Source: Hermatobates lingyangjiaoensis
Lineage: Eukaryota; Arthropoda; Insecta; Hemiptera; Hermatobatidae
NCBI GenBank assembly: GCA_026182355.1
Contig: JAPFBL010000997.1
Location: 88,501-152,500 of the forward strand
Length of the DNA stretch: 64,000 bases
Direction: 5' to 3'
The stretch's first letter is position 1. Every line of letters starts with the position of its first letter. The notes under the pieces were generated by a model. That model saw nothing but the letters and a program-made list of their open reading frames with translations, was not told the DNA's origin and did not search any database. This document shows positions 10,666-34,915 of this stretch, in pieces. Both the position numbers and the translations under genes were made by a program.

Positions 10666-10865
10666 TGACTGTATATATATATATATATTTGTTGACTCTG
10701 ACGAAGACCGCTTGTTACGGTTGAAAGATCTTAGTTTGTTTTCCCATTTCTTATCGTGGTTTGATCATTGATTGTTGTTTCACGTGTTTATGTGAAATCT
10801 TTATATATATATATATATATATATATATTAAGTTTGTTTTTTCACATAAACACGTGAATATATAT
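10666..10865 (+). mobile_element. PLE family A fragment between (TA)n runs
   Basis: A (TA)n run at 10,671-10,687 is followed by GACTCTGACGAAGACCGC, the hairpin and GAAAGATCT of family A at about 10,694-10,736. Then come TTTCCCATTTCTTAT and a TTTCACATAAACACGTG end. A second (TA)n follows at 10,801-10,828. The last base of the stem I 3' strand is mutated (AGTT instead of AGTC). Confidence 0.65.
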
Positions 10866-10867
10866 AT

Positions 10868-11575
10868 ATATTAATTAAACACCAGAATAAACAAATATAT
10901 ATTAATTACAATGCTCTAAGGCCTTTCGTTACAACATCATCAGACAGCTAAATGAACCAAACTAAAAATATAATAACAAGTTCACCTAATTGATTGAAGT
11001 CTTCATTCATTAATGATAGTAATTTGTTTAATAGGCTTGTTAATAATAAGGGGTAGGAAAAAAATAGTTGAGTATATAGGATACCTTGTACTGATTGCCA
11101 AGTGTCTTATATTGGACAGACGAGTAAAGGTCTGTTTACAAGAGTAAAACAACACCAATATTCAATCAGACGGGACGATGAAAAGAGTGCCTTGTTCTTA
11201 CATGTAAGGAACAAAAATCATATGATAAATTGGAGTGAAGCAAAGGAATTAATTTTTTTACCTTCAGAAAGGAGGAGAAATATTATTGAAAGTGTACTTC
11301 TGTGGAAATTTAATGAACAGTAGTCCGGGACTTTACAAACTAGATGGAATATTAATAAAAGAAATAAGTAAGCAGATCAAGACTCCTTCAATTTTAGGAA
11401 CATTAAATTCAGACAGGGATGCCAGCAATCCTAAAGACTTCAATCAACCAGGTTAACTTGTTATTATATTTTTAGTTTGGTTCATTTAGATCTCTGATGA
11501 TGTTGTAACAAAGGTCTTAGAGCATTGTAAGTAAGATATATTTGTTTATTGTGGTGTTTAATTCATATATTAAGA
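10868..11575 (+). mobile_element. Penelope-like element remnant with inverted ends
   Basis: A GIY-YIG endonuclease fragment is flanked by inverted copies of one sequence. The left end (10,868-11,010) has AATGCTCTAAGGCCTTTCGT and ACATCATCAGACAG, and the right end (11,430-11,570) has the reverse complement with changes. Each end carries a hammerhead-like core: left, minus strand, CTGATGA, T, GTTGTAAC, GAAA, AGGCCT, T. In the right copy the GAAA box has lost its G. The GIY-YIG piece with the inverted ends identifies the foldback families here as PLE-derived. Confidence 0.7.
11072..11323 (+). pseudogene. GIY-YIG endonuclease fragment of a Penelope-like element
   Basis: An open stretch reads VYRIPCTDCQVSYIGQTSKG, then LFTRVKQHQYSIRRDDEKSA, a histidine, and LIFLPSERRRNIIESVLLWK. 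This has the C-x2-C and YIGQT start, the Arg in the first helix, the H-x4-H-like spacing and the late Glu of the GIY-YIG nuclease that ends the Penelope ORF. In intact elements it follows a reverse transcriptase. No RT is present here, so this is a 5'-deleted copy with no function expected. Confidence 0.75.
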
Positions 11576-11579
11576 GTTA

Positions 11580-11960
11580 TTGTTGATTATTAATTTATAT
11601 ATATATATATATATATATAGGTGTGTTCTCTAATCGGGGTTCGGTCAATTTTCCAGGATAAAAAATCAAACTCTCGTTGCCAACGTTTCGGTTTTATTTA
11701 AAACCTTTTTCATAGGCAGAAGTAAGAATTTTTTAACTAAGAGAATGAAATGTACCTATTTAAAGGAACAACAATGTTAGCCGGACAAAACCTTCGACTA
11801 GACTAATAAGATAACGTAAATTGTAAATTTCATTTTCTTAGTTAAAAAATTCTTACTTCTGCCTATGAAAAAGGTTTTAAATAAAACCGAAACGTTGGCA
11901 ACGAGAGTTTGATTTTTTATCCTGGAAAATTGACCGAACCCCGATTAGAGAACACACCTA
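11580..11960. mobile_element. PLE family B palindrome after (TA)n
   Basis: The left arm (11,621-11,730) is repeated in reverse complement at about 11,835-11,957, with a non-palindromic centre near 11,760-11,820. Key sequences: TTCGGTCAATTTTCCAGGAT, CCGAAACGTTGGCAACGAGA and ATGAAAAAGGTTTTAAATAA. The GCC..hairpin..GAAACGTT..GGC arrangement follows hammerhead geometry, but CTGANGA is replaced by TATGAAAAA. Confidence 0.75.
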
Positions 11961-11993
11961 TTCTATCAAACGGTCGATATATTATTGAATATG

Positions 11994-12035
<42 letters not shown>

Positions 12036-12082
12036 CAATATAAACAAAGAAACATAGAGAAATCAAAAGAACACACTTAGAG

Positions 12083-12116
12083 TCTCTAATTTTCGGTTTG
12101 AACCGTCTTCAGGAGA
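12083..12116 (-). ncRNA. Hammerhead-like motif, PLE family C, left arm
   Basis: Minus strand: TCTC, CTGAAGA, extra C, hairpin GGTTCAAACC, GAAA, self-complementary AATT, A at the cleavage position, GAGA pairing with TCTC. This mirrors the plus-strand motif in the right arm. The order and pairing are visible directly; activity is not tested. Confidence 0.6.
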
Positions 12117-12219
12117 GATAAGAGAGGGAAACCAAGCGCACTGGTTCAGAGACGGTTGGAGACCAACGGTTGGTCTCCAACCGTCTCTGAACCAGTGCGC
12201 TTGGTTTCCCTCTCTTATC

Positions 12220-12253
12220 TCTCCTGAAGACGGTTCAAACCGAAAATTAGAGA
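12220..12253 (+). ncRNA. Hammerhead-like motif, PLE family C, right arm
   Basis: Plus strand: TCTC (12,220-12,223), CTGAAGA (12,224-12,230), extra C, hairpin GGTTCAAACC, GAAA (12,242-12,245), AATT, A, then GAGA (12,250-12,253) pairing with TCTC. Stem III is a 4-base self-complementary sequence with no loop, so a folded core would need two molecules pairing through it. Confidence 0.6.
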
Positions 12254-12339
12254 CTGTAAGTGTGTTCTTTTGATTTCTCTATGTTTCTTTGTTTATATTG
12301 AACTATATTGTCCGTTTTGGATCGTATTTCCAACGAAAA

Positions 12340-12342
12340 AAA

Positions 12343-12413
<71 letters not shown>

Positions 12414-12440
12414 ATATATATATATATTATATATATATTC
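12340..12440. repeat. (TA)n microsatellite
   Basis: About 100 bp of TA dinucleotides with minor interruptions, between two foldback elements. Confidence 0.95.
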
Positions 12441-12444
12441 TATG

Positions 12445-13125
12445 AGTTGTCCGGGGAAAGGAATATGATTCGTTGCAATGTTGACCAATAGGAGTGAAGT
12501 TTGCAGGTCCATGCGTAAGGTCCCAGTTGCCCGCTGCTCAGCAAAAAGCCTCAGTCGTTCTGCCAATAGGTATAGAGGTTGCACAGTCCCTCTGTGTTAA
12601 ATGATGTTTGGCAGAAAACATTAGCCTCACTTTACAGTGAACTCCTGTTCCCTTTCTATTTTTGATTTTTGTGGTGGTTGGGTGTTGTTGTTTACTATTT
12701 TCTGTTACGGATATTGCTAGATTTTAAATGATACTCTCGGTTGTTTACTGCGAAAAGCCGCCTTCATCTTCATGCCAACAGGGGTAGAGGTTGCACAGTC
12801 CCTCTTGATTATTAAAAGATGTTGGCCTGAAGATAACCAGAGAATGGTTGAAACATGTCGCAAATACCACCACCAGGTCAACAGTGCAGAACTTTTCATC
12901 ACCTACCAGCCATCCATCAATAGCAGCAATAACATTCGACTGAAGAGAAAACATGAAAATAAGAAACCGAAGAGGAAAGAAAACAAAACCTATAACTTGA
13001 AGATGTTTCTACGAGAAGGAGTTGGAATTCAGTGTCAGAGGCTTTTTGCTGAGCAGCGGGCAACTGGGACCTTATGCATGGACCTGCAAACTTCACTCCT
13101 ATTGGTCAACATTGCAACGATATAT
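12445..13125. mobile_element. Foldback element, probably PLE-derived
   Basis: The sequence at about 12,474-12,552 (GTTGACCAATAGGAGTGAAG, AGCAAAAAGCCT) returns inverted at 13,032-13,115 (AGGCTTTTTGCTGAGCAGCG). The interior holds a frame from 12,772 with NQRMVETCRKYHHQVNSAEL and a Lys-rich stretch, not recognised. A hammerhead-like core sits at 12,825-12,861. I assign it to the PLE group on the core and the foldback layout. Confidence 0.55.
12825..12861 (+). ncRNA. Hammerhead-like motif, separate family
   Basis: GC, CTGAAGA, extra T, stem II AACC..GGTT, GAAA, self-complementary ACATGT, C at the cleavage position, GC. Stem II and stem III sequences differ completely from the neighbouring families, while the core boxes and the extra base are kept. 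This pattern is best explained by structural conservation. Confidence 0.55.
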
Positions 13126-13600
13126 ATATATTCTATTGAAAATGATCGCAGTTTCTGCATTCATGTCCTTTTTATTAACAGATTCTAACCTCCATATTCT
13201 AATTTTCTTATTGTAGGAGGTAAACTATAAATCAGGTTCGCCAATGACATTTCCAAGTTCCTGTTCCAGTGAACGAAAGAAATTTAATAACATTTAGTAT
13301 ATAATAATATACTAAATGTATATTCACTCTACACTAATAAACTAGCTTTCAACCATCAATAGTGTAAGGTGAATGTACATTTAGACCATGTTTTTTAATT
13401 TCTTTCGTTCACCTGACCTATTTACTTGGAAATGTCATTGGCGAACCTGATTTATAGTTTACCTACTACAATAAGAAAATTAGAATCTGTTAATAAAAAG
13501 GTCGCGAATGCAGAAACAGCGATCATTTTCAATAGAGTATGCTTGAGAGAAGATCTGCTGCCAATATATACCAATATATATAACAAATTCAATAATATAT
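13125..13600. mobile_element. Foldback with PLE N-terminal-like peptide
   Basis: Sequence around 13,130-13,260 (GATCGCAGTTTCTGCATTC, GGTTCGCCAATGACATTTCC) is inverted at 13,425-13,545. The centre has a second inversion (TTTAGTATATAATAATATAC). The right arm encodes IIFNRVCLREDLLPIYTNIY, which shares FN.VC...LLP.YT with frames at 23.05 and 32.45 kb. Such a short conserved peptide is plausibly the N-terminal part of a Penelope ORF. Confidence 0.6.
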
Positions 13601-13604
13601 CAAC

Positions 13605-13975
13605 GGTTGGATAGAATAGGTGTATAATGTAATCGGGATTCGGTCAATTTTCCAGGATCAAAATCAAACTCTCAATGCCGACGTTTTGGTTTTATTTAAA
13701 ACCTTTTTCATAGGCAGAAGTCAGAATTTTTGAATTAGAAAAATGATGAAATTTACATTATATAAAATGAAGTAACAATAGATAGTTAGTGAACTAACAT
13801 CTTAACTGGTCAAAAACTTGGACCAGACTGATATTTCTGCCTATGAAAAAGGTTTTAAATAAAACCGAAACGTCGGCATTGAGAGTTTGATTTTGATCCT
13901 GGAAAATTGACCGAATCCCGATTACATTATACACCTAATATATATAACTATATATATATATATATATATTGATAT
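13605..13975. mobile_element. PLE family B palindrome and (TA)n
   Basis: Left arm from GGTGTATAATGTAATCGGGA (13,619), right arm ending TCCCGATTACATTATACACC (13,937). Contains two copies of the family B GAAACGTC core, one per strand, and the CCTATGAAAAAGG segment. The centre (13,745-13,830) is not palindromic. (TA)n follows to 13,970. This subtype (TAATGTAATCGGG ends) differs from the 11.6 kb subtype (TTCTCTAATCGGG ends). Confidence 0.75.
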
Positions 13976-14995
13976 AGTTTCTCGACCACTGATATTTCAA
14001 ATTCACATAAGGGGTTATTGAGGATTTTGGTCATAAAACATACAACTCCTGATCATCAGCCGACGTTTCGCCAAAAGTTGTCTGGCATTTTCAAGGCTAA
14101 AAAACAATTTATTAAACGACATAAGTAAAGCAAGATAAATACATCATCAGACACTATCCAACAGAAAACAAACGACACAAACAACAATTATAGTACCCAG
14201 AGAACCACAAAAGTATCATAAAATACCTAGTGTTATTATGATTATTATTATTATTATTTAAAAAACAGACATTTGTCCTTTTTTTATTACTTATTACTGC
14301 CTGTAATAAGCGATCAGATATATCAAGCCTTAGTTTAATTTATTCCAATCTCCTGCAATAGTTGCCATTGAACTGTTTCTCATGTTGACATTAGGGGAGT
14401 AGCTTGTTTTCCTTTCCTTTGTAGGGTTATGTAACCTTCCTGCATATGTGTATTTGTTATGATGTAGCCAGATATAAGCATGGACCAGTAAATTAGTGTT
14501 TTTTCTAAATCAAGGTAATATTTTTGTAAGGTTTTTGTTTTTCCCACTGAATTTCTTTTAATTTTTGACTCTTTTTTTCATGGTTTTTGTAATTTGCTGT
14601 GTTTATTACTGTGTGTTGTGGTTTTTGCTGTTTTGAAAATGTGTTTTTTTGGTGTTCTCAATAATTAATAATACGCAATTAGGTTTAAACGACAAATGTC
14701 TGTTTTTTAAATAATAATAATAATAATAATCATAATAACAGTAGGTATTTTATGATACTTTTGTGGTTCTTTGGGTACTATAATTGTTATTTGTGTCGTT
14801 TGTTTTCTGTTGGATGGTGTCTGATGATGTATTTATCTTGCTTTACTTATGTCGTTTAATAAATTGTATTTAGCCTTGAAAATGCCAAACAACTTTTGGC
14901 GAAACGTCGGCTGATGATCAGGAGTTGTATGTTTTATGACCAAAATCCTCAATAACCCCTTATGTGAATTTATATATATATATATATAATAGGAA
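13975..14995. mobile_element. 1-kb foldback element, PLE family F
   Basis: Left arm 14,000-14,290 is inverted at about 14,690-14,970. Markers are ACCAAAATCCTCAATAACCC, GATCATCAGCCGACGTTTCG, CAACTTTTGGCGAAACGTCG and an (ATT)n run. The unique centre spans about 14,300-14,690. The plus-strand core reads AGCC, TTGAAAAT, hairpin GCCA..TGGC, GAAA, ACGT, C, GGCT, like family B in its altered first box. It ends at (TA)n, 14,971-14,988. Confidence 0.7.
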
Positions 14996-17135
14996 TATTT
15001 CAAAATAAATATGTGAAACAGCAATCCATGTTCAAACCACAATAAGAAATGGGGAAAAAATGACTAAGTTAAGTCTTTTATTTATAAATTATAAATTATA
15101 ACTATAATTTATAAATTAATTGATTATAACTATTGGTTATAGTTAAGTTTGAAAAATCTTAGTTTTTTTCTCATATGTTATTGTGGTTTAAAAATTTTAG
15201 TTATGATGTATCAAAAAATATTTTTTTTTAATTTGAAAAAAAATTATATATTTAAAATGACATTTATCTAAATGTTACTTCTGTTTAGAGAGAACAATTT
15301 TTCTCTGATTTTTTTCATATAAAAAAAGAATTCAACCGTAACAAGCAGTTTTTGTCAGGTTTTTAATGTTTAAAGTTTTTAATTTAAAAAAATATATAAT
15401 TTTTATATATTTAAAATAACATTTATCTAAATGTTATTTCTGTTTACAAAGAAATTTTTTTCTCTGTTGTTTTCATAGTAAAAAAAAAAACTAACAGCCG
15501 TATCAAGCGGTCTTCGCCAGAGTAAAATCAGTTGGGCTTGTTACAGTTGAAAAATCTTAGTTTTGTCTTTCATTTCTTATTGTGGTTTAAACATTGATAA
15601 TTATGATGTATAAAAAAACATTTTTTTTTATTAAAAAAATAATATTAATATATTTAAAATAACATTTATCTATGTGTTATTTCCATTTAAAGAGAGAAAT
15701 TTTTCTGTTTTTTTTTTCAATTAAAAAAAAAAACTAAAATTTTTCAACCGTATTAAGCCCAACTAATTTGACTGAACATCTGGGATTAGACTTTGACGAA
15801 GACAGCTAAAAATCTTATTTTTTTTTTAATAAGAAAAAAAAAACAGAAAAATTTCTCCATGTAAACAGAAATAATATTTAGATAAATGTTATTTTAAATA
15901 TATAAATATAATTTTTTTGTTTTAATTAAAAAAAAAAATTTTAATACATCATAAGAATCAATATTTAAAACACAATAAGAAATGAGAAAAAAAACTAAGA
16001 TTTTTCAACCGAAACAAGCGGTCTTCGTCAGAGTCAAATCCCAGATGATCAGTCAAATCAGTTGGGCTGATTATTTACCGTAATAACCGTATTATTTACG
16101 GTTGAAAAATCTCGTTTTTTTTCCTCATATGTTATTGTGGTTTAAACATTCATTACTATAATATATGAAAAAATATTTTTTTTTAAGTATTAAAAAAAAA
16201 TAATGTTTATATATTTTAAATAGTATTTATCTAAATAATATTTCTGGTTATAGAGAGAAATTTATCTCTGTTTTTTTTTTTTCATATTAAAAAATAAAAC
16301 AGAATTTCAACCGTAAGAAGCAGTCTTCGTCACAGTTACATCAATTGGGATGTTTCGGTTGAAAAATCTAATTTTTTTCTCATTTCTTATTGTGATTTAA
16401 ACATTGATTATTATTATTATTATTATTATGATATATGAAAAAACATTTTTGTAATTTAAAGGAAAAAATAAATTTTATATATTCAAATAACATTTATCTA
16501 AATATTATTTCAGTTTACAGAGAGAAATTTTTCTCTGTTTTGTTTCATTTTAAAAAAAAAAGAAAAAAACTTATTTTTTTTTCTTATTCCTTATTGTAGT
16601 TTAAACATTGTTTAGTATGATGTATGTAAAAACTTCATTAATTTAAAAAAAAAATAAAATTTATTTAAATGTTTACTCTGTTTTTTTTTTATATTAGAAA
16701 AAAACTAACAACCGTAACAAGCGGTCTTCGTCAGAGTCAAATCAGTTGGGCTTGTTACGGTTGAAAAATCTAAGCTTTTTTTTTTTCAGTTAGTATTGTG
16801 GTTTAAACGTTCCTTATTATTTTTGTATGTAAGCACTTTTTTTTAATTTAAAAAAAAATAAAATTTATTTATTTAAATGTTAGTTCTGTTTACATAGAGA
16901 AATTATTCTCTGTTGTTTTTTGTATATTAAAAAAACAAATAATAACCTTAATAAACGGTCATTGTCAGAGTCAAATCAGTTGGGCTTATAACGGTTGAAA
17001 AATCTTAGTTTTTTTTCTCATTTCTAAGATTTGCAAAACTAAGATTCCTTTCTCATTTCTTATTGTGATTTAAATATTGATTATTATGTTTGTATGTAAA
17101 AATATTTTTTTTTAATTTTTTAAAAAAAATTTTTT
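14996..17135. repeat. Degenerate array of family A units abutting the RA exon
   Basis: Irregular tandem units of about 160-360 bp combining TTTATCTAAATGTTATTTCT, GTTTACAGAGAGAAATTTTT, a family A core (ACCGTAACAAGCGGTCTTCG) and TTCTTATTGTGGTTTAAACA. One unit near 15,836-15,925 is inverted. The last unit runs directly into the acceptor of the exon at 17,161, whose flank TTATTTCTGTTTACAG|AAAGAA is itself a copy of the repeat's internal sequence. Confidence 0.75.
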
Positions 17136-17160
17136 ATCCAAAAGTTATTTCTGTTTACAG

Positions 17161-17348: not shown

Positions 17349-17409
17349 GTGTATAACGGAATTATTATTTATTTGATAACGGAACAATTTTGAAAGTTCT
17401 TATGGTTTG

Positions 17410-18316: not shown

Positions 18317-18368
18317 TTTGAGGTAAAATGGATAAATCAACAAAAGTCTCCACACAAATGAAGTTTTA

Positions 18369-18407
18369 TTCAACGCGTTTCGAACACTTTGTGTTCATCA
18401 TCAGGAA
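18369..18407 (-). ncRNA. Hammerhead-like motif, PLE family E, left arm
   Basis: Minus-strand mirror of the motif at 18,504-18,542, with the same boxes: TTC, CTGATGA, extra T, hairpin GAACAC..GTGTTC, GAAA, ACGCGT, T, GAA. Confidence 0.6.
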
Positions 18408-18503
18408 AACACCAAGGAAGTGGTACTGACGGGTTGGTCAAGTGACTGTCAAGTGACAGTTGTTTTCACTTGACGAACCCGTCAGTACCACTTCCTTGGT
18501 GTT

Positions 18504-18542
18504 TTCCTGATGATGAACACAAAGTGTTCGAAACGCGTTGAA
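18504..18542 (+). ncRNA. Hammerhead-like motif, PLE family E, right arm
   Basis: TTC, CTGATGA (18,507-18,513), extra T, stem II GAACAC-AAA-GTGTTC, GAAA (18,530-18,533), self-complementary ACGCGT (18,533-18,538), T (18,539), GAA pairing with TTC. Stem II is a perfect 6-bp hairpin. The same core recurs in the copies at 27.6-27.8, 42.5 and 57.7 kb. Confidence 0.65.
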
Positions 18543-18649
18543 TAAAACTTCATTTGTGTGGAGACTTTTGTTGATTTATCCATTTTACCTCAGAATGAGT
18601 AAATACCACACAATTACGGATTGCACAACTAATGATTTATTATGAAAAA

Positions 18650-19085: not shown

Positions 19086-19505
19086 TACTTGCAGCTGAGC
19101 AGGTTCAGTAGGACCATTGGTCCGGAGTTTGCCCGAAAATTTGAGTTTGTAAGTGTTTCTTTACTTTGTGTGCTACCTATCTTCAATTTTAAACTGTTAT
19201 ATATACATAGACTGTCGTCCCTTCGTCAATTCACTTCTTCTCCTGAGGACGTCCGCCATTACCGTCGAAATATTGAAAAGTGAGACTTTGTTATGTTTCT
19301 GTCTATGTGTCACAGTTTATTTTTAGTGTATATATATGTATATATAGTTCACACAGGAAAGAGAAAACACAAATAAAGACACACACAAAAGACTCACAAC
19401 GATATTTCGACAGTCGTCGTCATCGGGCAGAACTAGTCCCTTTGAGTAGCTGAAGCTAACTCTATATGTATATATAGACTCTATATGTATATATATACAT
19501 AACTC

Positions 19506-19544: not shown

Positions 19545-19640
19545 TTTATATGAATATTTTAATATAAAATTAACCCCGAAGGTGGTCTATGATGACCGAA
19601 ACGTTGGTTTGTAATTGTATATTATATATGTTTTACTAAT
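19086..19640. mobile_element. Cluster of decayed PLE ends and (TA)n
   Basis: Three pieces are seen. The first, 19,089-19,320, resembles family D/G and has CTGAGGA..GAAATATTG near 19,243-19,275. The second is a minus-strand family H core (CGATATTTCGACAGTCGTCG) near 19,399-19,430, with CTGATGA mutated to CCGATGA. The third is a B-like CCGAAACGTTGG near 19,598. They are separated by (TA)n-rich runs at 19,460-19,540. Confidence 0.5.
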
Positions 19641-20760: not shown

Positions 20761-21000
20761 CCGTTCTCCGACGTTTAGTGCCTAGCTCCTTTTTTACGCT
20801 AGTGCTGCTCTCTTCGGTTGACTCTTTATTTCTTCATTCGCGCTCCGTTCTTCGACGTGGGGAGATCTCTCTCACTTCGTCCTCTCTACTAGTCTACTCT
20901 CCTGATGACGAACAACAGTTCGAAATATTGAATTCTGTAAGTTTTCTTTGTATTGTCTTTTCTGTGTCGTGCTTTGTGTAATTTAAAGTTATATATATCA
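20761..21000 (+). mobile_element. PLE family G end
   Basis: Contains CGTTCTTCGACGTGGGGAGA, CTACTAGTCTACTCTCCTGA and TTTTCTGTGTCGTGCTTTGT, and ends AATTTAAAGTTATATATA. The same sequence, inverted, is at 31,041-31,200. It holds the family G hammerhead-like core. Confidence 0.65.
20900..20931 (+). ncRNA. Hammerhead-like motif, PLE family G
   Basis: TC, CTGATGA (20,902-20,908), extra C, stem II GAAC-AACA-GTTC, GAAA (20,922-20,925), self-complementary ATAT (20,925-20,928), T, GA. Stem I is short here (2 bp), so this copy is weaker than families A, C and E. Confidence 0.5.
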
Positions 21001-21599: not shown

Positions 21600-22181
21600 T
21601 ACCATATATATATATATATATATATATATAACTAGAATTTAAAAAAGAACACATAGAAAGGAAACCACTGAACTCACTACTATATTTCGATGTCCTCGTC
21701 TTCAGGAAAAGAAGTGAATCGCTCCAAAGGCTGATAACGACTGACTTGGCGTTCGAACTGAAGCACTCAAACAGTGTAGCCAAGTTTCGGAGGAAAGGTA
21801 GACAGGAAGATAAAGAGATAAAAGCCAAATAAAAATTAAAAAATGAAAACATATAACTATAATAAAATTAAAAGTTGATAACAACTTTAAAAAAAAAAAA
21901 AAATCAACGATTGAGGTTAAGCCCAGGAGCCGATCTACCGCCCAGAAGACTAATAAGTGCTTCTTCTGAAGCTCTCAGAGTAACTTTCGAATTAGTCTGA
22001 TCAATCTGCCTCAGGACGACCTCTACACGGAAACAGTCATTAAAACTGAGTCCGTGAGAACTGGCATGAGTAGCAACGGGAAGGTCACTGCGTTTGCGAA
22101 CGGATGACCTGTGATTATTCATACGCAGGCTTAGCTTGGTGGAAGCCAAACCCACATAAAAAGAATCACACTGGGTGCAAT

Positions 22182-22325: not shown

Positions 22326-22590
22326 AAAAGTTGGGAGCAGTCCTTCTTCAATGCATGCTTTTATAAACTGGATGTCTGTTTCCACTTTGTTCAATTTCGT
22401 CTTATATTTTTCCAAATTACGAAATTTTGTCTTTAATTCCGAGTTCAACAAAAAAATTAAATCACCATAATTTTTATGTTGAACTCGGAATTAAAGACAA
22501 AATTTCGTAATTTGGAAAAATATAAGACGAAATTGAACAAAGTGGAAATAGATATCCAGTTTTTAAAAGCATATATATATGTAGTTCAAT
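22318..22590. mobile_element. Foldback of a PLE N-terminal segment
   Basis: Minus-strand AAAGTTGGGAGCAGTCCTTC..TTCCGAGTTCAAC, 22,325-22,447, returns inverted at 22,478-22,570. The encoded segment includes FLKACIEEGLLPTFT, matching the EGLLP peptide of the other foldbacks. Both ends are (TA)n. Confidence 0.65.
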
Positions 22591-22915: not shown

Positions 22916-22950
<35 letters not shown>

Positions 22951-23125
22951 ATTATTAAATTTCTTCCCAACTTCTCTATGTATTATTTTTCGATACAGTT
23001 TTTTAAGATTGAAAAACTGTATCGAAAAATAATACATAGAGAAGTTGGGAAGAAATTTAATAATGTTTGTATAAACGAAGGTCTGCTACCTAGTTACACT
23101 ATATATATATATATATATATATATA
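22915..23125. mobile_element. (TA)n and short PLE palindrome
   Basis: (TA)n at 22,913-22,946, then a palindrome centred near 23,010 (AAATTTCTTCCCAACTTCTC inverted as GAGAAGTTGGGAAGAAATTT). The right arm encodes KKFNNVCINEGLLPSYT, the recurrent N-terminal peptide. (TA)n follows at 23,100-23,126. Confidence 0.65.
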
Positions 23126-23482
23126 TCCACTTAAAATTCGAAAAAACGATCCAAACTGGACGCAAATCAGTTCACAAACGAAGAAATGCAACACACAGAG
23201 AAAGAGACACACTTACAAACTCAAATTTTGTAACAAACTCAAATGGGCGACCAAGCACGCCGGAAACACAACGGCAGGAAAACGTGGGTTTTCCTGCCGT
23301 TGTGTTTCCGGCGTGCTTGGTCGACCATTCTCTCTTTTCTCCTGAAGACGGATCATCCGAAAATTTGAGTTTGTAAGTGTGTCTCTTTCTCTGTGTGTTG
23401 CATTTCTTCGTTTGTGAACTGATTTGTGTCCAGTTTGGATCGTTTTTTCGAATTTTAAGTGGATATATATATATATACAGTT
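23126..23482. mobile_element. PLE family D palindrome
   Basis: Left arm 23,127-23,290 (CCACTTAAAATTCGAAAAAA, GAAGAAATGCAACACACAGA) is inverted at 23,290-23,462, with the centre at CCGTTGTGTTTCCGGCG/CGCCGGAAACACAACGG. The left core is partly deleted; the right core is intact. Ends in (TA)n. Confidence 0.8.
23339..23369 (+). ncRNA. Hammerhead-like motif, PLE family D
   Basis: CTC, CTGAAGA (23,342-23,348), extra C, hairpin GGATCATCC, GAAA (23,359-23,362), self-complementary AATT, T at the cleavage position, GAG pairing with CTC. Further family D copies at 31.4 and 34.8 kb have one or two stem II mismatches. Confidence 0.6.
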
Positions 23483-25189: not shown

Positions 25190-25560
25190 AGTGTTCAAAT
25201 CACAATAGGAAATGGGAAACAAAGACTAAGATCTTTCAACTGTACAAGTGGTTTTGTCAGAGTCAAAAGCCCAACTTAAATAAAATATACGAGTATATAT
25301 ATACGTTTCACGATGAATCACAAACACAGAACTAAGGAACAAACACACTTACTGTCTCTAATTTTCGGTTGAACCGTCATCAAAGAGTTTAGAAAGGGAC
25401 ACCAAGCTCACTTGTGAAGCGACGGTTGTTGGAGACCTGGTCAACTCTCCTGATGACGGTTCAACCGAAAATTAGAGACAGTAAGTGTGTGTCTTCCTTA
25501 GTTCTGTGTTTGTGATTCATCGTGAAACGTTTCTTGTCCTTTTGGATTGTTTTCCTGTTT
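25190..25560. mobile_element. PLE family A half and family C-like palindrome
   Basis: 25,190-25,275 is a single family A copy with core mutations (CTGTACAAGTGGTTTTGTCA). After (TA)n a palindrome spans 25,300-25,530 with CGTTTCACGATGAATCACAA ends and family C cores. The left core is damaged (CTTTGATGACGG) and the right one intact. Confidence 0.7.
25446..25478 (+). ncRNA. Hammerhead-like motif, family C variant
   Basis: TCTC (25,446-25,449), CTGATGA (25,450-25,456), extra C, hairpin GGTTCAACC, GAAA (25,467-25,470), AATT, A, GAGA. Compared with the 12.2-kb copy, position 7 of the first box is T instead of A (CTGATGA versus CTGAAGA), which is the variable position in the hammerhead core. Confidence 0.6.
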
Positions 25561-27490: not shown

Positions 27491-27494
27491 GTAA

Positions 27495-27895
27495 TTAAAT
27501 CATTAGTTGTGCAATCCGTAATTGTGTGATATTTACTAATTCTGAGGTAAAATGGATAAACAAACAAAAGTCTCCACACAAATGAAGTTTTATTCAACGC
27601 GTTTCGAACACTTTGTGTTCATCATCAGGAAGACACTATAATACAAATTATATCTAATTAGTTACAAAAATTAGAGTGAAATAATAAAATTCAATTAAGA
27701 GAATTCAAGAATTAAGAGAATCCTTGGGTATGTCTTGAATTCTTTTAATTGAATTTTATTATTTCACTCTAATTTTTGTAACTAATTAGATATAATTTGT
27801 ATTCTTCCTGATGATAAACACAAAGTGTTCGAAACGCGTTGAATAAAACTTCATTTGTATGGAGACTTCTGTTGGTTTATCCATTTTACCTCAGA
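27495..27895. mobile_element. PLE family E foldback
   Basis: Starts CATTAGTTGTGCAATCCGTA, then GAGGTAAAATGGATAAACAA; inverted right arm ends CCATTTTACCTCAGAA at about 27,894. Both arms have the family E core (minus strand near 27,596-27,634, plus strand near 27,800-27,840). The extended end is on the left here and on the right at 18.3 kb. A first-box mutation (GATGATAAACAC) is present in the right arm. Confidence 0.75.
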
Positions 27896-28019
27896 AATAT
27901 AATTAGCTAGCTTACTTGTGGATTTATCAAATTTTATCCACATACTTGCAATGGTTGTCCCTGTGCTTTGTTAATGTTTATTTGTTTATTTTTATTATTT
28001 GTGGGTGACTATAGCACTG

Positions 28020-29925: not shown

Positions 29926-30065
29926 GCACCTGAACCACAACTCTGATTTTAAAACAAAATTATATAAGCCTTCCCGGGGATATATCAAATAATTTCATAA
30001 ATTATCACGTCGATTGGATGTATGGTTTTTGAATCTATGGAGTACAGACAGACACACATTCATTC
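29926..30065 (-). mobile_element. Helitron-like fragment
   Basis: Minus strand: GAATGTGTGTCTGTCTGTAC, TCAAAAACCATACATCCAAT, CGACGTGATAATTTATGAAA, ATATCCCCGGGAAGGCTTAT, ending with CAGAGTTGTGGTTCAGG. The same sequence occurs twice at 40.44-40.76 kb. TCTATATATAT starts with this kind of continuation are common at 5' ends of animal Helitrons; the assignment is by resemblance only. Confidence 0.45.
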
Positions 30066-30279
30066 ATATATATATATAAAAAGATTTCACATAAACACGT
30101 GAAACAACAATCAATGATCAAACCACAATAAGAAATGGGAAAACAAGACTAAGATCTTTCAACCGTAACAAGCGGTCTTCGTCAGAAGATCAGTTGGGTT
30201 TTTGACTCTGACGAAGACCGCTTGTTACGGTTGAAAGATCTTAGTCTTGTTTTCCCATTTCTTATTGTGGTTTGATCAT

Positions 30280-30324
<45 letters not shown>
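30066..30324. mobile_element. PLE family A palindrome plus (TA)n
   Basis: AAGATTTCACATAAACACGT leads into two inverted family A copies meeting at TCAGAAGATCAG (about 30,185-30,190). Right copy intact, left copy lacking part of stem I. (TA)n at 30,283-30,324. Confidence 0.8.
30204..30246 (+). ncRNA. Hammerhead-like motif, PLE family A (intact)
   Basis: GACT (30,204-30,207), CTGACGA (30,208-30,214), extra A, stem II GACCG-CTTGTTA-CGGTT, GAAA (30,233-30,236), self-complementary AGATCT (30,236-30,241), T, AGTC (30,243-30,246). Four stem I pairs are all Watson-Crick. One of the best copies for testing cleavage, which would be expected after T30,242 if it acts as a hammerhead. Confidence 0.65.
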
Positions 30325-30326
<2 letters not shown>

Positions 30327-30850
30327 TGTATAATGTAATCGGGATTCAGTCAATTTTCCAGGATCAAAATCAAACTCTCAATGCCGACGTTTCGGTTTTA
30401 TTTAAAACCTTTTTCATAGGCCTACAAACAAAGGATGACAAGAAATCATATATAAACATCAACATATAACTAACATCAAAATGGAATATTACAGTTGTGA
30501 AAAAACAAAAATATATATACAAGTAGAAGTAATAGAAAAGCAATAAACATTTTTATGAACTTACAGAAGTCAGAAAAAAAAAAAAAAAAAAAAATTCTGA
30601 CTTCTGTAAGTTCATAAAAATGTTTATTGCTTTTCTATTACTTCTACTTGTATATATATTTTTGTTTTTTCACAACTGTAATATTCCATTTTGATGTTAG
30701 TTATATGTTGATGTTTATATATGATTTCTTGTCATCCTTTGTTTGTAGGCCTATGAAAAAGGTTTTAAATAAAACCGAAACGTCGGCATTGAGAGTTTGA
30801 TTTTGATCCTAGAAAATTGACCGAATCCCGATTACATTATACACCTATTC
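30325..30850. mobile_element. PLE family B palindrome (long arm version)
   Basis: Near-perfect foldback of two arms of about 250 bp around a 20-bp A run at 30,574-30,594. Arms carry GGTGTATAATGTAATCGGGA, CGACGTTTCGGTTTTATTTA, GGCCTACAAACAAAGGATGA and TATAACTAACATCAAAATGG. The arms match almost base for base, so the inversion is recent or under gene conversion. Confidence 0.85.
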
Positions 30851-30875
30851 TAACCAACGGTTGATATATTATTGA

Positions 30876-30932
<57 letters not shown>

Positions 30933-31040
30933 CAAACCAGAATATGAAAATGGTAAAACAAGACTAACATCTTTCAACCGTAACAAGCGGTCTTCGTCAG
31001 AGTCTAAAACGCAACTGATATATATATATATATATATATA
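30851..31040. mobile_element. (TA)n runs with single family A copy
   Basis: (TA)n at 30,881-30,929, family A minus strand at 30,930-31,015 (core at about 30,973-31,000), (TA)n at 31,018-31,040. Confidence 0.7.
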
Positions 31041-31214
31041 ACTTTAAATTACACAAAGCACGACACAGAAAAAAGAATAAAAAGAACACTTACAGAATTC
31101 AATATTTCTGAATACGAACTGTTGTTCGTCATCAGGAGTAGACTAGAAGAGAGGACGAAGTGAGAGAGATCTCCCCACGTCGAAGAACGAACCGCGAATA
31201 TATATATATATATA
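31041..31214 (-). mobile_element. PLE family G end, inverted copy
   Basis: Reverse complement of the 20.76-21.0 kb fragment, from ACTTTAAATTACACAAAGCA to CTCCCCACGTCGAAGAACG. The core near 31,105-31,137 has a changed GAAA neighbourhood (CAATATTTCTGAATACGAAC), so it is probably defective. Confidence 0.65.
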
Positions 31215-31513
31215 TTTCACTTAATGAAATGAAACACGATCCAAACTGGACACATTACGAGTTCAAAATTCAAGAATAGTAACACACAGAGTAAGGAAAC
31301 ACAATTACAGACTCAAATTTTCGAGTAATCCGTCTTCAGGAGAAAAGAGAAAAGGAGACCAATCAGGTTGTAGACGCAACGGCAAGTAACCGTTGCGTCT
31401 ACAACGTGCTTGGTCTCCTTTTCTCTTTTCTCCTGAAGACGGATTACTCGAAAATTTGAGTCTGTAAGTGTGTTTCCTTACTCTGTGTGTTGCTCTTCTT
31501 GAATTTTGAACTC

Positions 31514-31555
<42 letters not shown>
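31215..31555. mobile_element. PLE family D palindrome plus (TA)n
   Basis: Arms from TTCACTTAATGAAATGAAAC to the inverted TTGAATTTTGAACTCGTG, centre GTAGACGCAACGG..CCGTTGCGTCTAC near 31,385. Cores on both strands (about 31,318-31,348 minus, 31,430-31,462 plus) with stem II GGATTACTC, partly mismatched. Confidence 0.75.
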
Positions 31556-31561
<6 letters not shown>

Positions 31562-31894
31562 TAATAAATAAAAAACGAAGGAAACACACAGAAAGACACA
31601 GACATAACTCACATCGATATTTCGACAATCGTCGTCATCAGGAGGTGCGAAGAGCGAAGAGTCCCGCAGGAAGACAGGGCGGTACTGAACTCAGTACTGA
31701 GTTCTGAGTACTGAGTTCAGTACCGCCCTGTCTTCCTGCGGGACTCTTCGCTCTTCGCACCTCCTGATGACGACGATTGTCGAAATATCGATGTGAGTTA
31801 TGTCTGTGTCTTTCTGTGTGTTTCCTTCGTTTTTTATTTTATTGTAAAAAAGTCTGCTGGACCGTTTCTTTTAAATATATATATATATATACAC

Positions 31895-31928
<34 letters not shown>

Positions 31929-31930
31929 CT
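31556..31930. mobile_element. PLE family H palindrome between (TA)n
   Basis: Left arm AAAAACGAAGGAAACACACA..GTGCGAAGAGCGAAGAGTCC, inverted right arm to about 31,840, centre at CAGTACTGAGTTCTGAGTAC near 31,710. Half of this family is also at 58.74-58.9 kb and a decayed copy at 19.4 kb. Confidence 0.8.
31758..31795 (+). ncRNA. Hammerhead-like motif, PLE family H
   Basis: CACCTC (31,758-31,763), CTGATGA (31,764-31,770), extra C, stem II GAC-GATT-GTC, GAAA (31,782-31,785), self-complementary ATAT, C at the cleavage position (31,789), GATGTG pairing with CACCTC at five of six positions. The mirror copy is on the minus strand near 31,615-31,652. Confidence 0.62.
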
Positions 31931-32190
31931 TTTTCGTTGGAAATACGATCCAAAACGGACAAATATGGTTCAATATAGACAAAGAGACCTAGAGAAATCA
32001 AAAGAACCCACTTACAGTCTCTAATTTTTGGTTTGAACCGTCTTCAGGGTCTCCAACCGTCCCTGAACCAGTGCACATGGTTTCCCTCTCTTATCTCTCC
32101 TGAAGACGGTTCAAACCGAAAATTAGAGACTGTAAGTGTGTTCTTTTAATTTCTCTATGTTTCTTTGTCTATATTGAACCATATATATTG
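31931..32190. mobile_element. PLE family C palindrome
   Basis: CGTTGGAAATACGATCCAAA, then arms 31,966-32,045 and 32,100-32,182 inverted (TGGTTCAATATAGACAAAGA). The left arm core is truncated by a junction at GTCTTCAGGGTCTCCAACCG, and the right arm core (about 32,099-32,132) is intact. Confidence 0.75.
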
Positions 32191-32482
32191 GTATACTTTG
32201 GGAGCAGACCTTCTTTTAAACATACCTCATTAAATATCTTGCCAATATTAAGTTTAGTATGTTTCCTACATACCTTTTCAAGATTTCTAATGCTAATTTT
32301 CCATCTTTGTGGTATCATATAAATTAACTCTCGGATTTAATTTAATTTAATCGGAGAGTTAATTTATATGATACCACAAAGATGGAAAAGTAGCATTAGA
32401 AATCTTGAAAAGGTATGTAGGAAACATACTAAACTTAATGTTGGCAAGATATTTAATGAGGTATATATATATATATATATAT
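32190..32482. mobile_element. Foldback of PLE N-terminal segment
   Basis: GGTATACTTTGGGAGCAGAC..ACTCTCGGATTTAAT is inverted from 32,340 to 32,460. The right arm reads open with ALESLEKVCRKHTKLN-like coding and KIFNEVCLKEGLLPKYT (the last residues from the left arm on the minus strand). This is the best copy of the shared N-terminal peptide. (TA)n at 32,463-32,481. Confidence 0.65.
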
Positions 32483-32596
32483 GATCAAACCACAATAAGA
32501 AAATGGGAAAGCAAGACTAAGATCTTTCAACCGTAACAAGCGGTCTTCGTCAGAGTCAAAAACCCAACGGATATATATATATATATATATATATAA
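32483..32596 (-). mobile_element. PLE family A copy flanked by (TA)n
   Basis: Single minus-strand copy with the intact core at about 32,516-32,558 and (TA)n from 32,574. Confidence 0.75.
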
Positions 32597-33292
32597 AATT
32601 CAATAATATATCAACCGTTGGATAGAATAGGTGTATAATGTAATCGGGATTCGGTCAATTTTCCAGGATCAAAATCAAACTCTCAATGCCGACGTTTCGG
32701 TTTTATTTAAAACCTTTTTCATAGGCCTACAAACAAAGGATGATAAGAAATCATATATAAACATCAACATTTATAGAAGTAGTCATAGAAGAAGTATGTC
32801 ATAGAAGTGACATTACCAATTTGAACACTATTTATTCAGGAGTGTTAAGTTGATTTTAGTGAAATTTAATTTCCTTAGTTCCTTTTTGTGTTCTTTGAGT
32901 GAACAGTGTTTCGATTTACATGTAATTGTAATCAGTTAGTCTGGTCCAAGTTTTTGACCAGTTAAGATGTTAGTTCACTAACTATCTATTGTTACTTCAT
33001 TTTATATAATGTAAATTTTCATCATTTTTCTAATTCAAAAATTCTGACTTCTGTAAGTTCATAAAAATGTTTATTGCTTTTCTATTACTTCTACTTGTAT
33101 ATATATTGTTGTTTTTTCACAACTGTAATATTCCATTTTGATGTTAGTTATATGTTGATGTTTATATATGATTTCTTATCATCCTTTGTTTGTAGGCCTA
33201 TGAAAAAGGTTTTAAATAAAACCGAAAAGTCGACATTGAGAGTTTGATTTTGATCCTGGAAAATTGACCGAATCCCGATTACATTATACACC

Positions 33293-33300
<8 letters not shown>
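32597..33300. mobile_element. PLE family B element with unique centre
   Basis: Inverted family B ends (GGTGTATAATGTAATCGGGA at 32,630; TCCCGATTACATTATACACC at 33,272) flank about 250 bp of non-palindromic sequence (32,790-33,040), including GTCTGGTCCAAGTTTTTGAC, which also occurs at 13,810-13,826. The right core is mutated (GAAAAGTCGACA). It looks like a less contracted version of the 30.3-kb palindrome. Confidence 0.75.
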
Positions 33301-33304
<4 letters not shown>

Positions 33305-33333
<29 letters not shown>

Positions 33334-33992
33334 CAATGGCCAGAAAAGTGACTCATCAGTCCCATTTGTTCGGTCTCAATCACTCCTCTCTATCTCTCTC
33401 TCTTCTTCAAATCTGAGTACGTCGTCCCTCGGAAAGGACGCTAAACCTTCAGCCCCTAACCTGTACCTGTAGTCGTTAAAGATCCCCTACTCGAAAAAAA
33501 CTTGAATTAGGCCAAATTTAGGACTCCCCAATGTAGAATCTGTAGAATCACCGATCAAACTATAAGCCGGTAAACAGTTGACGTTTTCACCTACTAGGGG
33601 AATTGTTATTATATATGAAATGTTAACTCCTTTAGCCATCTTGAATATTCCTATTCCCACTAAATAATCGAAAATTAAGCAACATTATGCCTAGTTAGAA
33701 CTTGGATAGGTGACACGTTTCCTATAATACAGCTCTTCGATTTAGCAAATCAAATATGACCCACTCTTTACCTCCAGATAGTAAAAGTGTATGAAGCCTC
33801 TTTAAAGCTGGTTGGTAGCAATAAATTAATAAATACTTTATTCAATGGTGTTTTTTAAGCATAAAATATATATCAAATGGAGAAAAAAAACTTACTGTTT
33901 TTCTAGATGTGAAGTCCTATATGGCAGAATGACTTGGCGATTGAACGGTTTAACGAACAAGATGTGAAGTTGATGGAATCAGATAGAGAGTA

Positions 33993-34023
<31 letters not shown>

Positions 34024-34247
34024 TTTGAGGTGGGGGGGGGGGGGGGGCAGGAAATAGGAGCTACGCCATTGGTCATCTGTTTTAGACCAATCAACTTGCT
34101 TTACTTACTGGACTGCTGGAGTTATTTATGAATATGGTTTTTGAGTGGGAGAGTGGAAATACGCAAATCTGTTTTGAACAACCTTGAAGGGGGAAGTTAT
34201 TTTTAAAATTCACTTTTATGTAAAAATGGATTTGAAGGGGAGAGAGA

Positions 34248-34281
<34 letters not shown>

Positions 34282-34346
34282 GTGAGTGAGCGAGACCGAG
34301 CAAATTGGACTGATGAGTCACTTCCCTAGTCATTGCACCCTCCAGC

Positions 34347-34350
<4 letters not shown>
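33305..34350. mobile_element. DNA element with inverted ends, unassigned
   Basis: Terminal sequence GCAATGGCCAGAAAAGTGAC, TCATCAGTCCCATTTGTTCG at 33,332-33,375 returns inverted at 34,285-34,342 (AAATTGGACTGATGAGTCAC, TAGTCATTGCACCCTCCAGC), with (GA)n inside one end and outside the other. The interior has (TG)n at 33,998-34,024, a G run at 34,031-34,048 and no coding frame. Flanks are (TA)n, so any TA target duplication is hidden. Likely non-autonomous. Confidence 0.55.
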
Positions 34351-34378
<28 letters not shown>

Positions 34379-34590
34379 TTCACATAAACACGTGAAATAA
34401 CAATCAATTATCAAACCACAATAAGAAATGGGAAAACAAGACAAGATCTTTCAACCGTAACAAGTGGTCTTCGTCAGAGTTGCGTTCGTCAGTTGGTTTT
34501 TGACTCTGACGAAGACCGCTTGTTACGGTTGAAAGATCTTAGTCTTGTTTTTCCATTTCTTATTGTGGTTTGATAATTGATTATATATAT
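34351..34590. mobile_element. PLE family A palindrome
   Basis: Same layout as at 30.07-30.28 kb, beginning AAAAGATTTCACATAAACAC after (TA)n. Two inverted cores meet at GAGTTGCGTTCGTCAGTTGG. Right-hand core intact at about 34,504-34,546, left one with AAGTGGTC and a lost base. Confidence 0.8.
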
Positions 34591-34856
34591 ATTCACTTGA
34601 TAAACGGAAAGACGATCCAAACTGGACACAATAACAGTTCAAAATTGAAGATAGGTAGCACAGAAAGTAAAAGAAACACACTTACAGACTCAAATTTTCG
34701 GGTAATCCGTCTTCAGGAGAAAAGAGAAAAGGAGACCAAGCACATTGTAGACGCAACGGCTAGTAACTCTTTTCTCCTGAAGACGGATTACCCGAAAATT
34801 TGAGTCTGTAAGTGTGTTTCTTTTACTTTCTGTGCTACCTATCTTCAATTTTGAAC

Positions 34857-34914
<58 letters not shown>

Positions 34915-34915
34915 T
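34591..34915. mobile_element. PLE family D palindrome and long (TA)n
   Basis: Arms TTCACTTGATAAACGGAAAG..GACTCAAATTTTCGGGTAAT and the inverse to about 34,860. Cores near 34,694-34,724 (minus) and 34,768-34,800 (plus). Followed by 52 bp of pure (TA)n. Confidence 0.8.

Follow-up and report, generated by a model that had tools for sequence, protein, structure and literature searches.

Hammerhead motifs of several families, probably belonging to Penelope-like elements, in head-to-head foldbacks of the Hermatobates lingyangjiaoensis genome

Hammerhead motifs in the window

The window, i.e. the whole stretch of 64,000 nt analysed here within the 910 million bases of the H. lingyangjiaoensis genome, carries many copies of a short hammerhead motif, which are listed in Table 1 together with the foldbacks and a coding piece. 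A strict scan (CTGANGA, 0 or 1 extra base, a stem II of at least 3 bp, GAA, a palindrome beginning with A, a non-G base and a stem I of at least 2 bp) detected 22 copies, all 22 with one extra base, and none in 100 first-order Markov sequences. The hammerhead models of Rfam (release 15) had no match in the window, which thus represents a set of hammerhead-like motifs escaping that release, whereas a custom covariance model (R1), whose 12 training copies came from six families, namely A, C/Cb, D/Dd, E, G and H, gave 73 matches up to E 10 when run unfiltered over the whole window, including those 12, which match by construction. At E<0.01 there were 35 matches, 16 on the plus and 19 on the minus strand, of which 31 fall between positions 10,666 and 34,915; this agrees with an earlier note, made from the sequence alone, that had counted more than 30 copies on both strands in this interval. 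Copies also occur beyond it (626, 42,563, 57,689 and 58,794), and 53 places were found with blastn-short and 13 seeds when decayed copies are included.

Families J and O were recovered by R1 although absent from its training set, as were K and L (the latter with E 0.048), but these two are related to H and to C/D, respectively. Scores were weak for the untrained families X, I and B (0.17-0.4 for the last) and family N was matched on one strand only, in a search whose unexplained background begins at E 0.37.

Both the CTGANGA and GAAA boxes are intact in 31 of the 35 R1 matches at E<0.01. Among these, one extra base after the first box gives the best pairing in 29, two of which tie with two extra bases, while stem II is absent in every register in two. 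A canonical hairpin stem III was not found: in 29 of the 31 copies its place is taken by a bare, perfect palindrome of 4 or 6 nt, as in the minimal hammerheads of Penelope-like elements (PLEs). The base at position 17 of these 29 copies is T in 20, A in 6 and C in 3 and never G, a non-G base having been a requirement in the strict scan. The single extra base and the A, C or T at position 17 had both been noticed before and are confirmed here.

The earlier note had further proposed that at least eight unrelated-looking families share this design. The common design is real, but the eight are reduced to about seven (A, C/D, E, G, H, I and X, an unnamed family at 12,827), because C, Cb, D, Dd and L show mutual cross-hits and common flanks and hence form one lineage; the variety itself holds, with families B, N and O newly added by a box-free scan. 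In family N, the core pair C3-G8 is replaced by a compensated U3-A8, and the core of family B has U3-A8 plus one inserted base. Stem I has only 2 bp before a mismatch in G, H and X and is broken in I and K.

Table 1. Hammerhead motifs, foldbacks and coding piece in the window (E, E value with model R1; trained, copy in the R1 training set; arm lengths in nt with identity)
Feature	Position	Strand	Remarks
Family A hammerhead	30200..30250	+	palindrome AGATCT, extra base A; E 3.8e-8, trained
Further family A copies, e.g.	584-634, 30958-31008, 32511-32561, 34498-34548	-, -, -, +	
Family C hammerhead	12216..12257	+	AATT, extra base C; E 2e-11, trained; opposite arm 12079-12120 (-)
Subfamily Cb hammerhead	25442..25482	+	E 1e-10, trained
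Family D hammerhead (C lineage)	23334..23374	+	E 4.2e-12, trained; cross-hits with C
Family E hammerhead	18499..18547	+	ACGCGT, extra base T, 6-bp stem II; E 2.9e-8, trained; opposite arm 18364-18412 (-)
Family G hammerhead	20894..20937	+	ATAT, extra base C, stem I 2 bp; E 1e-9, trained
Family H hammerhead	31756..31797	+	ATAT, extra base C; E 5.5e-10, trained; opposite arm 31608-31649 (-)
Family I hammerhead	10910..10951	-	AGGCCT, extra base T; E 0.12, untrained; decayed + partner at 11494
Family X (unnamed), hammerhead-like	12819..12867	+	ACATGT, extra base T; E 0.032, untrained; strict scan
Family J, hammerhead-like	19235..19282	+	weak stem II; E 2.9e-4, untrained
Family K, hammerhead-like	21673..21713	-	weak stems, relative of H (cross-hits); E 1.5e-4, untrained
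Family O, hammerhead-like	19568..19613	+	box with two changes (CCGAAGG); box-free scan; E 0.0035, untrained
Family N hammerhead	14868..14916	+	U3-A8 core TTGAAAA, extra base T, ACGT; box-free scan; no R1 match on this strand
Family N opposite arm	14054-14102	-	E 9.5 only
Family B, hammerhead-like	11856..11904	+	TATGAAAAA: U3-A8 plus inserted A; ACGT; box-free scan, 6 rows; E 0.4
80-codon piece	11081..11320	+	translation; stop at 11321; the family I + hammerhead follows after about 171 nt
Foldback I	10925..11512		arms 79, 92%, 430 nt apart
Foldback B3	11617..11961		arms 139, 99%; tail one end
Foldback C1	12028..12308		arms 140, 99%, 1 nt apart; tail one end
Foldback B4	13595..13959		arms 125, 93%; tail one end
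Foldback N	13999..14971		arms up to 159, 97-99%; tail one end
Foldback E1	18319..18592		arms 127, 99%; tail one end
Foldback D3	23112..23477		arms 118, 99%; tail both ends (exception)
Foldback Cb	25303..25530		arms 80, 98%; tail one end
Foldback E2	27537..27899		arms 97, 95%; tail one end
Foldback A1	30110..30283		arms 77, 100%; tail one end
Foldback B1	30322..30848		arms 254, 99%; tail one end (by eye)
Foldback D1	31257..31515		arms 126, 96%; tail one end
Foldback H1	31566..31839		arms 136, 99%; tail one end (by eye)
Foldback C2	31963..32184		arms 86, 94%; tail one end
Foldback B2	32627..33295		arms 147, 98%; tail one end
Foldback A2	34403..34581		tail one end
Foldback D2	34633..34860		arms 94, 100%; tail one end
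Foldback E3	42432..43133		arms 83, 96%; tail both ends (exception)

Foldback insertions and their tails

Most copies of the window are probably short insertions of PLEs that have the 3' region of the element at both ends, with the 3' ends pointing outward. Close neighbours are arranged head to head in 20 of 22, 9 of 10 and 24 of 29 cases in separate counts, direct order being confined to 1 of 22 (none in ++ and one in -- order), 1 of 10 and 4 of 29. Many of the foldbacks have arms of unequal length and long single-copy spacers. The region is also rich in TA repeats and in palindromes that are devoid of any hammerhead.

A tail occurs at one end only in 16 of 18 foldbacks of the window, as judged by eye, the two exceptions (D3 and E3) having it at both. 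Among 20 fetched head-to-head pairs, a single tailed end was seen in 18 and two tailed ends in none, while no tail was found in the remaining two. This one-ended pattern is the less expected part of the data; it constrains PLE insertion and is hard to reconcile with two independent choices of start site or with simple self-priming.

Covariation of the stems and the 3-8 core pair

In line with the former observation that stem sequences change together while the boxes stay fixed, 89.6% of the stem cells are paired versus 66.5% in shuffles, with none of 500 shuffles reaching this value, and both-sided changes occur in 7 of the 8 stem pairs (12 of 500 shuffles as high). The further pair types do not exceed the shuffles, 468 of the 500 reaching the same value. 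Overall, these in silico data support a predicted hammerhead blueprint with covarying stems.

When the whole genome was searched, pattern matches sorted by positions 3 and 8 amounted to 12,638 for C/G, 4,443 for U/A, 532 for U/G and 546 for C/A, as compared with 0-5 matches each for the reversed-pattern control, and the ACGT type alone accounted for 17,081 matches. The two positions thus go together genome-wide, as the hammerhead fold demands.

Association with Penelope-like elements

Elsewhere in the genome, six out of ten fetched loci have such a hammerhead 199-211 nt downstream of the end of an ORF that contains a YIG-type motif. This is a direct link to PLEs, in which hammerheads are established according to the earlier note. 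Pfam RVT_1 was above cut-off in two of eight ORFs (L063 and L059), with one more just below, and Pfam GIY-YIG had no match in any ORF scanned; L059 is a fetched foldback that combines a U3-A8 hammerhead with a reverse transcriptase ORF. Within the window, only family I has a coding piece, of 80 codons, which we take to resemble the GIY-YIG endonuclease of PLEs; Pfam, PDB and homologues gave it no support, and it had no BLASTP match to the reverse transcriptase-bearing ORFs L063 and L059.

The proximity of ORF and hammerhead at these other loci suggests that the motifs of the window are probably minimal type I hammerheads of PLEs, a known kind, which occur in head-to-head insertions that are also known. 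Judging from the sequence, the short RNA design shared by these PLE copies is probably self-cutting. Minimal PLE hammerheads have been described (Cervera and de la Pena 2014; Lunse, Weinberg and Breaker 2017) as having the type I order without a proper helix III, as being PLE-linked and present in thousands per genome, and as thought to act as dimers. Several families side by side, which the earlier note did not know from the literature, have a precedent in Acropora millepora, for which more than 6000 type I motifs in 16 families are reported, all but 1508 resembling the minimal PLE/Terminon type (PMC7229834).

Two further known systems resemble the present insertions. PAc, a Penelope/Poseidon element of Anolis carolinensis, is a PLE with a reverse transcriptase (RT), a YIG endonuclease and a hammerhead that inserts in AT-rich targets, but it is described in direct tandems, whereas in the present genome neighbouring copies mostly lie head to head and many of the copies have no coding sequence (PMC11167929). 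Penelope families of Adineta vaga have head-to-head pLTRs in simple AT-rich targets and a 31-bp tail that is optional at one inverted pLTR; they differ from the window copies, which are mostly short non-coding foldbacks, and the one-tail pattern has been counted here (PMC3846280).

Proposed mechanism and alternative explanations

A joint explanation by minimal type I PLE hammerheads, a dimer-type ribozyme and two-ended priming behind the foldbacks is likely. In each motif, stem I is followed by a CUGANGA or UUGANAA box, after which come one extra base, stem II and GAA, and a palindrome starting at A15.1 replaces the hairpin stem III. Since a 4-mer palindrome is unable to close on itself, two RNA copies would be needed; paired through it, they would form two active cores and, by analogy with published PLE and newt work, cleave after base 17. 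On the simplest account, both DNA ends at the target cut would prime reverse transcription near the 3' region of the element, each from a different one of two start sites, and the resulting cDNAs would be joined in the middle. The ribozyme probably processes the RNA, the insertion step itself probably having no need of it. For PAc, the protein cuts and extends both target strands in vitro, two RT start sites bound a tail, and start-site use is alike on both strands, offering no sign that the sites are coupled (PMC11167929).

Several results count against this explanation, among them the exceptions to the one-ended tail, the like start-site use in PAc and the lack of Pfam GIY-YIG and BLASTP matches given above. 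RNAcofold minimum-energy dimers of seven families are extended duplexes and not the hammerhead dimer, and whole foldback transcripts are predicted to form hairpins of high stability, in which the ribozyme would be hidden. The commonest extra base is C10 (16 of the 31 box-keeping copies), which in the predicted fold of family C is paired to G12 and which is reported to be strongly harmful in the hammerhead of CChMVd (PMC3705267). The frequency of C10 and this pairing would suit a fold kept mainly as a recognition structure, for the PLE protein or for RNA pairing, and hardly or not catalytic, with selection acting on the shape and not on cleavage, as would the predicted cut matching none of 13 placeable truncated arm starts (by an ungapped method, with some copies related), the stems and palindrome kept in family B despite the base inserted in its box, and the reports that PAc mutants abolished in cleavage still insert and that PAc RNA is uncut without protein (PMC11167929). 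This reading is nevertheless somewhat unlikely: the letters of the catalytic core, including C3-G8 or the compensated U3-A8, are kept though the stems differ, which goes beyond what mere stem structure would need, and PAc does cleave once its protein is added (PMC11167929).

Self-priming of one strand, in which a hairpin is copied on antisense RNA, instead of priming at both target ends, has been proposed for A. vaga Penelope from palindromes at head-to-head junctions (PMC3846280) and would fit C1 and H1, two symmetrical foldbacks whose arms lie 1-2 nt apart. As an origin of the foldbacks it is unlikely, since a self-copied hairpin should give like outer ends, whereas the fetched pairs nearly all have a one-ended tail; the unequal arms and long single-copy spacers of many foldbacks also argue against it, as does the extension of both target strands by PAc in vitro (PMC11167929). 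Retrozymes, i.e. small non-coding elements with hammerheads in direct tandem that spread as circular RNA, are common in animals with type I hammerheads (PMC7229834) and most window copies are indeed non-coding, but inverted order dominates close neighbours, a palindrome alone stands in place of stem III and the same hammerheads are found with coding PLE copies, making this a very improbable origin. As for chance matches, the abundance of TA repeats and hammerhead-less palindromes would favour them, but they are refuted, with practically no likelihood left, by the strict-scan and reversed-pattern controls and by the covarying stems.

Two-ended priming with a dimer-type ribozyme may be extended in a speculative and quite unlikely direction, in which the palindromic stem III would, besides completing the ribozyme, be the dimer signal of the PLE RNA and the RNA pair would sit on a two-fold protein with each RNA priming one DNA end and the protomers forced to different start sites. 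The large class with U3-A8 would then represent another hammerhead core that sustains itself in the same element group. If this were true, foldbacks tailed at one end and tailless at the other would be expected, and a single assembly would underlie both the dimerisation of the ribozyme and integration.

Natural variation of the hammerhead core

Elements of this kind are already known, but their great number here and the regular architecture of the inserts bring unanswered questions on PLEs within reach of testing. A single genome that combines many families with two types of core and various extra bases amounts to a natural mutagenesis set, which predicts fast cutting for U10 families and slow cutting for C10 and bears on whether U3-A8 cores work. 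The plus-strand hammerhead of CChMVd likewise has one extra base, A10, between A9 and 10.1, but it belongs to a viroid, while the base here is C, A or T depending on the family (PMC3705267). Natural hammerheads with the same compensated U3-A8 pair were active in vitro in published cases, several examples being given (PMC3088659) as against the thousands of U/A pattern matches in this genome, where young insertions exist with either core.

Hammerhead motifs sharing one design

A strict motif scan of the window recovered 22 hammerhead copies. Each has a single extra base following CTGANGA, and 100 Markov sequences gave no such copy. A covariance model trained on 12 copies of families A, C/Cb, D/Dd, E, G and H gave 35 places at E<0.01 (16 on the + strand and 19 on the - strand), 31 of them at 10666-34915; matches to the 12 training copies are built into the model. 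The common hammerhead blueprint read from the sequence in the earlier note, with more than 30 copies on both strands, is thus real. Both Rfam and custom models had been proposed there for checking it: the custom model yielded these places while Rfam hammerhead models had no match in the window, whether at the gathering score or at E 10, and 121 bases of family E gave none either. The custom model also picked up families on which it had not been trained, namely J (E 2.9e-4) and O (E 0.0035), together with K (E 1.5e-4) and L (E 0.048), which are relatives of trained lineages; scores were weak for X (0.032), I (0.12), B (0.17-0.4) and N (9.5), with background starting at E 0.37. A box-free scan returned 22 rows, some of which represent one copy in several registers (mean 1.6 and maximum 5 rows in 30 Markov sequences), and also recovered B, N and O, the last differing from CTGANGA at two positions.

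The motif consists of a stem I strand, CTGANGA, one base, the stem II hairpin, GAA, a palindrome, base 17 and the second stem I strand. Among 31 copies with both boxes, the extra base is C in 16, A in 8 and T in 7; 29 of them pair best with one extra base, two of these tying with two, and the other two have no stem II. The constancy of the extra base applies to the window; the genome patterns assume this base. The palindrome starts at A15.1 and is, depending on the family, AGATCT, AATT, ACGCGT, ATAT, ACATGT, AGGCCT or ACGT. Base 17 is, as had been claimed, always A, C or T (T 20, A 6, C 3; n=29). Families A and C have a stem I of 4 bp, and D and E one of 3 bp; for G, H and X the stem meets a mismatch after 2 bp.

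Stem sequences do change together: 89.6% of stem cells are paired versus 66.5% in shuffles, and the covariation score is 0.758 versus 0.304, neither value being reached in 500 shuffles. Shifting the partner by one column lowers this score to 0.208 or 0.104. By one covariation measure, further pair types were not above shuffles (468 of 500 as high). An earlier permutation test on 10 families gave values as high in 52 (stem I), 0 (stem II) and 11 (stem III) of 20,000, with an input in which N was one base out of register and I was a decayed copy; the shuffle test is relied on instead. Of the eight unrelated-looking families initially proposed, C and D do not stand apart, as C, Cb, D, Dd and L form a single lineage by cross-matches and common flanks.

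Other features of the window are listed in the Table. The 5' end common to several family A copies, which we take to be initiator-like, is perhaps an RNA start, and the two regions with several open frames are perhaps tandem repeats rather than genes. Some of the foldbacks (pairs of inverted arms) without a recognised hammerhead are near-perfect.

Table. Coordinates of additional features in the window
Positions	Feature	Observation
584-634, 30200-30250, 30958-31008, 32511-32561	Family A copies	Common 5' end ~18-19 nt upstream of the box, resembling TCAGTTGGG
3921-5384, 36360-37134	Several frames open at once	Scanned ORFs without confident Pfam family
8884-9769	Short repeats with regular spacing	Steps mostly multiples of ~54 bases; equal weak model matches
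13132-13536	Foldback without recognised hammerhead	
~15100-17100	Group of incomplete, decayed family A copies	Nested, in inverted and repeated arrangement; several share one truncation inside loop II
18404/18507 versus 27628, 27808, 42563, 57689	Family E copies	All shared from stem I onward; two different upstream sequences, fused at the hammerhead
22357-22570, 22948-23067, 32225-32461	Foldbacks without recognised hammerhead	92-97% over palindrome

A compensated core pair

In family N the box reads TTGAAAA plus T, so that U3 and A8 replace C3 and G8, and family B combines the same change with an inserted A. Both were considered as core-dead look-alikes and this reading was dropped, for N because the box-free scan recovers it as a compensated U3-A8 form and a joint change of C3 and G8 to U3 and A8 is reported for several natural hammerheads, ribozymes of this kind having proved active in vitro (PMC3088659), and for B because relatives without the insertion occur among the genomic U/A matches. 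Exact patterns with the extra base and an ACGT palindrome fixed were searched in 909,949,117 bases (1,629 contigs) and matched 12,638 places with C/G at positions 3/8, 4,443 with U/A, 532 with U/G and 546 with C/A (reversed-pattern controls: 0, 3, 5 and 4, respectively). The odds ratio for pairing of these positions is 193, in counts inflated by shared descent within families, the events not being independent; selection on the pair would be expected to keep both singly changed classes small, and they are. Foldbacks with arms 100% identical over ~120 nt occur in both main classes, which means that decay alone does not account for the U3-A8 form.

Foldbacks with a single tail

Within the window, 104 pairs of inverted sequences, each 35 nt or longer, lie no more than 1,500 bases apart. 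Many of them hold head-to-head hammerheads whose 3' ends face outward and often abut TA repeats. Across the genome, the first 100 U/A places include 22 neighbours no more than 5 kb apart, of which 20 have the same -/+ order; in the first 100 places of two other genome searches, the second of them for C/G, this order holds for 9/10 and 24/29 neighbours, chosen by eye. The outer ends of foldbacks are unlike, one stopping short and the other being extended by a family-specific tail of 30-45 nt. When every -/+ neighbour among these first 100 U/A places was fetched (20 pairs) and scored with two tail words derived from the same pairs, the tail was on exactly one end in 18, on neither in 2 and on both in none. 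Were the ends to choose independently, at most half would differ, and 18/18 scorable pairs would have a chance of 4e-6. Of the 18 window pairs scored, by eye and with the pattern already known, 16 are one-tailed; the family I tail is taken from one copy, and the scoring did not extend to X, to single copies or to the family A copies at 15-17 kb. Two foldbacks, D3 and E3, are tailed at both ends.

The side of the tail relative to the longer arm was mixed by eye, and no link was retained; the window arm comparison was ungapped and gave no result for foldback A2 or for I. Candidate target-site duplications were sought in 29 foldbacks, with a 12-base word at both ends of locus L083 and a second, possible case in L071, but this signal is not relied on because 21 of 812 mismatched-arm control comparisons reach at least 12 and many foldbacks end in TA repeats.

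For Penelope, the tail is described as optional at one of the inverted pLTRs (PMC3846280). For PAc, a Penelope-like element (PLE) of Anolis carolinensis, two RT start sites that bound the tail are reported, with both strands extended and no difference in start site between strands (PMC11167929). A strict one-tail rule was not found stated in the portions of the Penelope literature consulted, from one open library.

Relation to Penelope-like elements

Ten loci were fetched around paired or tandem hammerheads elsewhere in the genome. In six, the arms enclose ORFs that are 110 residues or longer, carry a YIG-type motif and stop 199-211 nt upstream of the hammerhead; the other four lack such ORFs. 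Pfam RVT_1 was above cut-off in two of the eight ORFs scanned (L063, 3.4e-11; L059, 5.4e-11, whose hammerheads are U3-A8), just below it in the L048 ORF and without a match in the other five, and no GIY-YIG family matched any of the eight. The connection of these hammerheads to PLEs is thereby supported. In the window, family I alone has a coding-like piece, of 80 codons with a CxxC-YIG-H-H pattern, presumably typical of PLE endonucleases, and a stop ~171 nt before a + strand hammerhead. For this fragment a homologue search found none, a PDB sequence search gave no meaningful match or support, and BLASTP against the L063 and L059 ORFs gave no match; its AlphaFold model (mean pLDDT 46) was left unused. 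Neither RT nor GIY-YIG was found among 49 window ORFs compared with Pfam.

PLEs are already known to carry minimal type I hammerheads, which number in the thousands per genome and possibly act as dimers (PMC7761336, PMC6155905, PMC7229834), and the last of these papers reports sixteen type I families in one coral, so the window families belong to this known kind. Three features stand out: their density in 24 kb, the U3-A8 copies in their thousands, and the count of one-tailed pairs.

Putative mechanism and catalysis

The hammerhead would be carried by the PLE RNA and completed when two copies pair at the palindrome, the paired hammerheads then cleaving after base 17; the PLE protein may assist in this, as it does in PAc. 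Priming from both DNA ends would yield the head-to-head form. Insertion seems to use uncut RNA, because none of 13 placed truncated arm starts, some from related copies, coincides with the predicted cut. In the CChMVd hammerhead, exchanging A10 for C does strong harm while exchanging it for U is of benefit (PMC3705267), and in the predicted family C fold C10 is paired to G12; by this analogy and folding, C10 would stand against efficient catalysis. RNAcofold dimers of seven families are extended duplexes and whole foldback transcripts are predicted to form very stable hairpins (-235 to -402 kcal/mol), so the transcript of a foldback itself may not cut.

Finally, motif scans of IMG/VR with and without the extra base gave 18 and 27 viral stretches, with L010 in both. 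None was accepted as a PLE, and by eye they were read as phage-type hammerheads or chance matches. Eight of the 18 (L002, L005, L007, L008, L009, L011, L012 and L013) have an extra base after CTGANGA and a stem II of at least 4 bp; these may represent phage hammerheads that share this feature.
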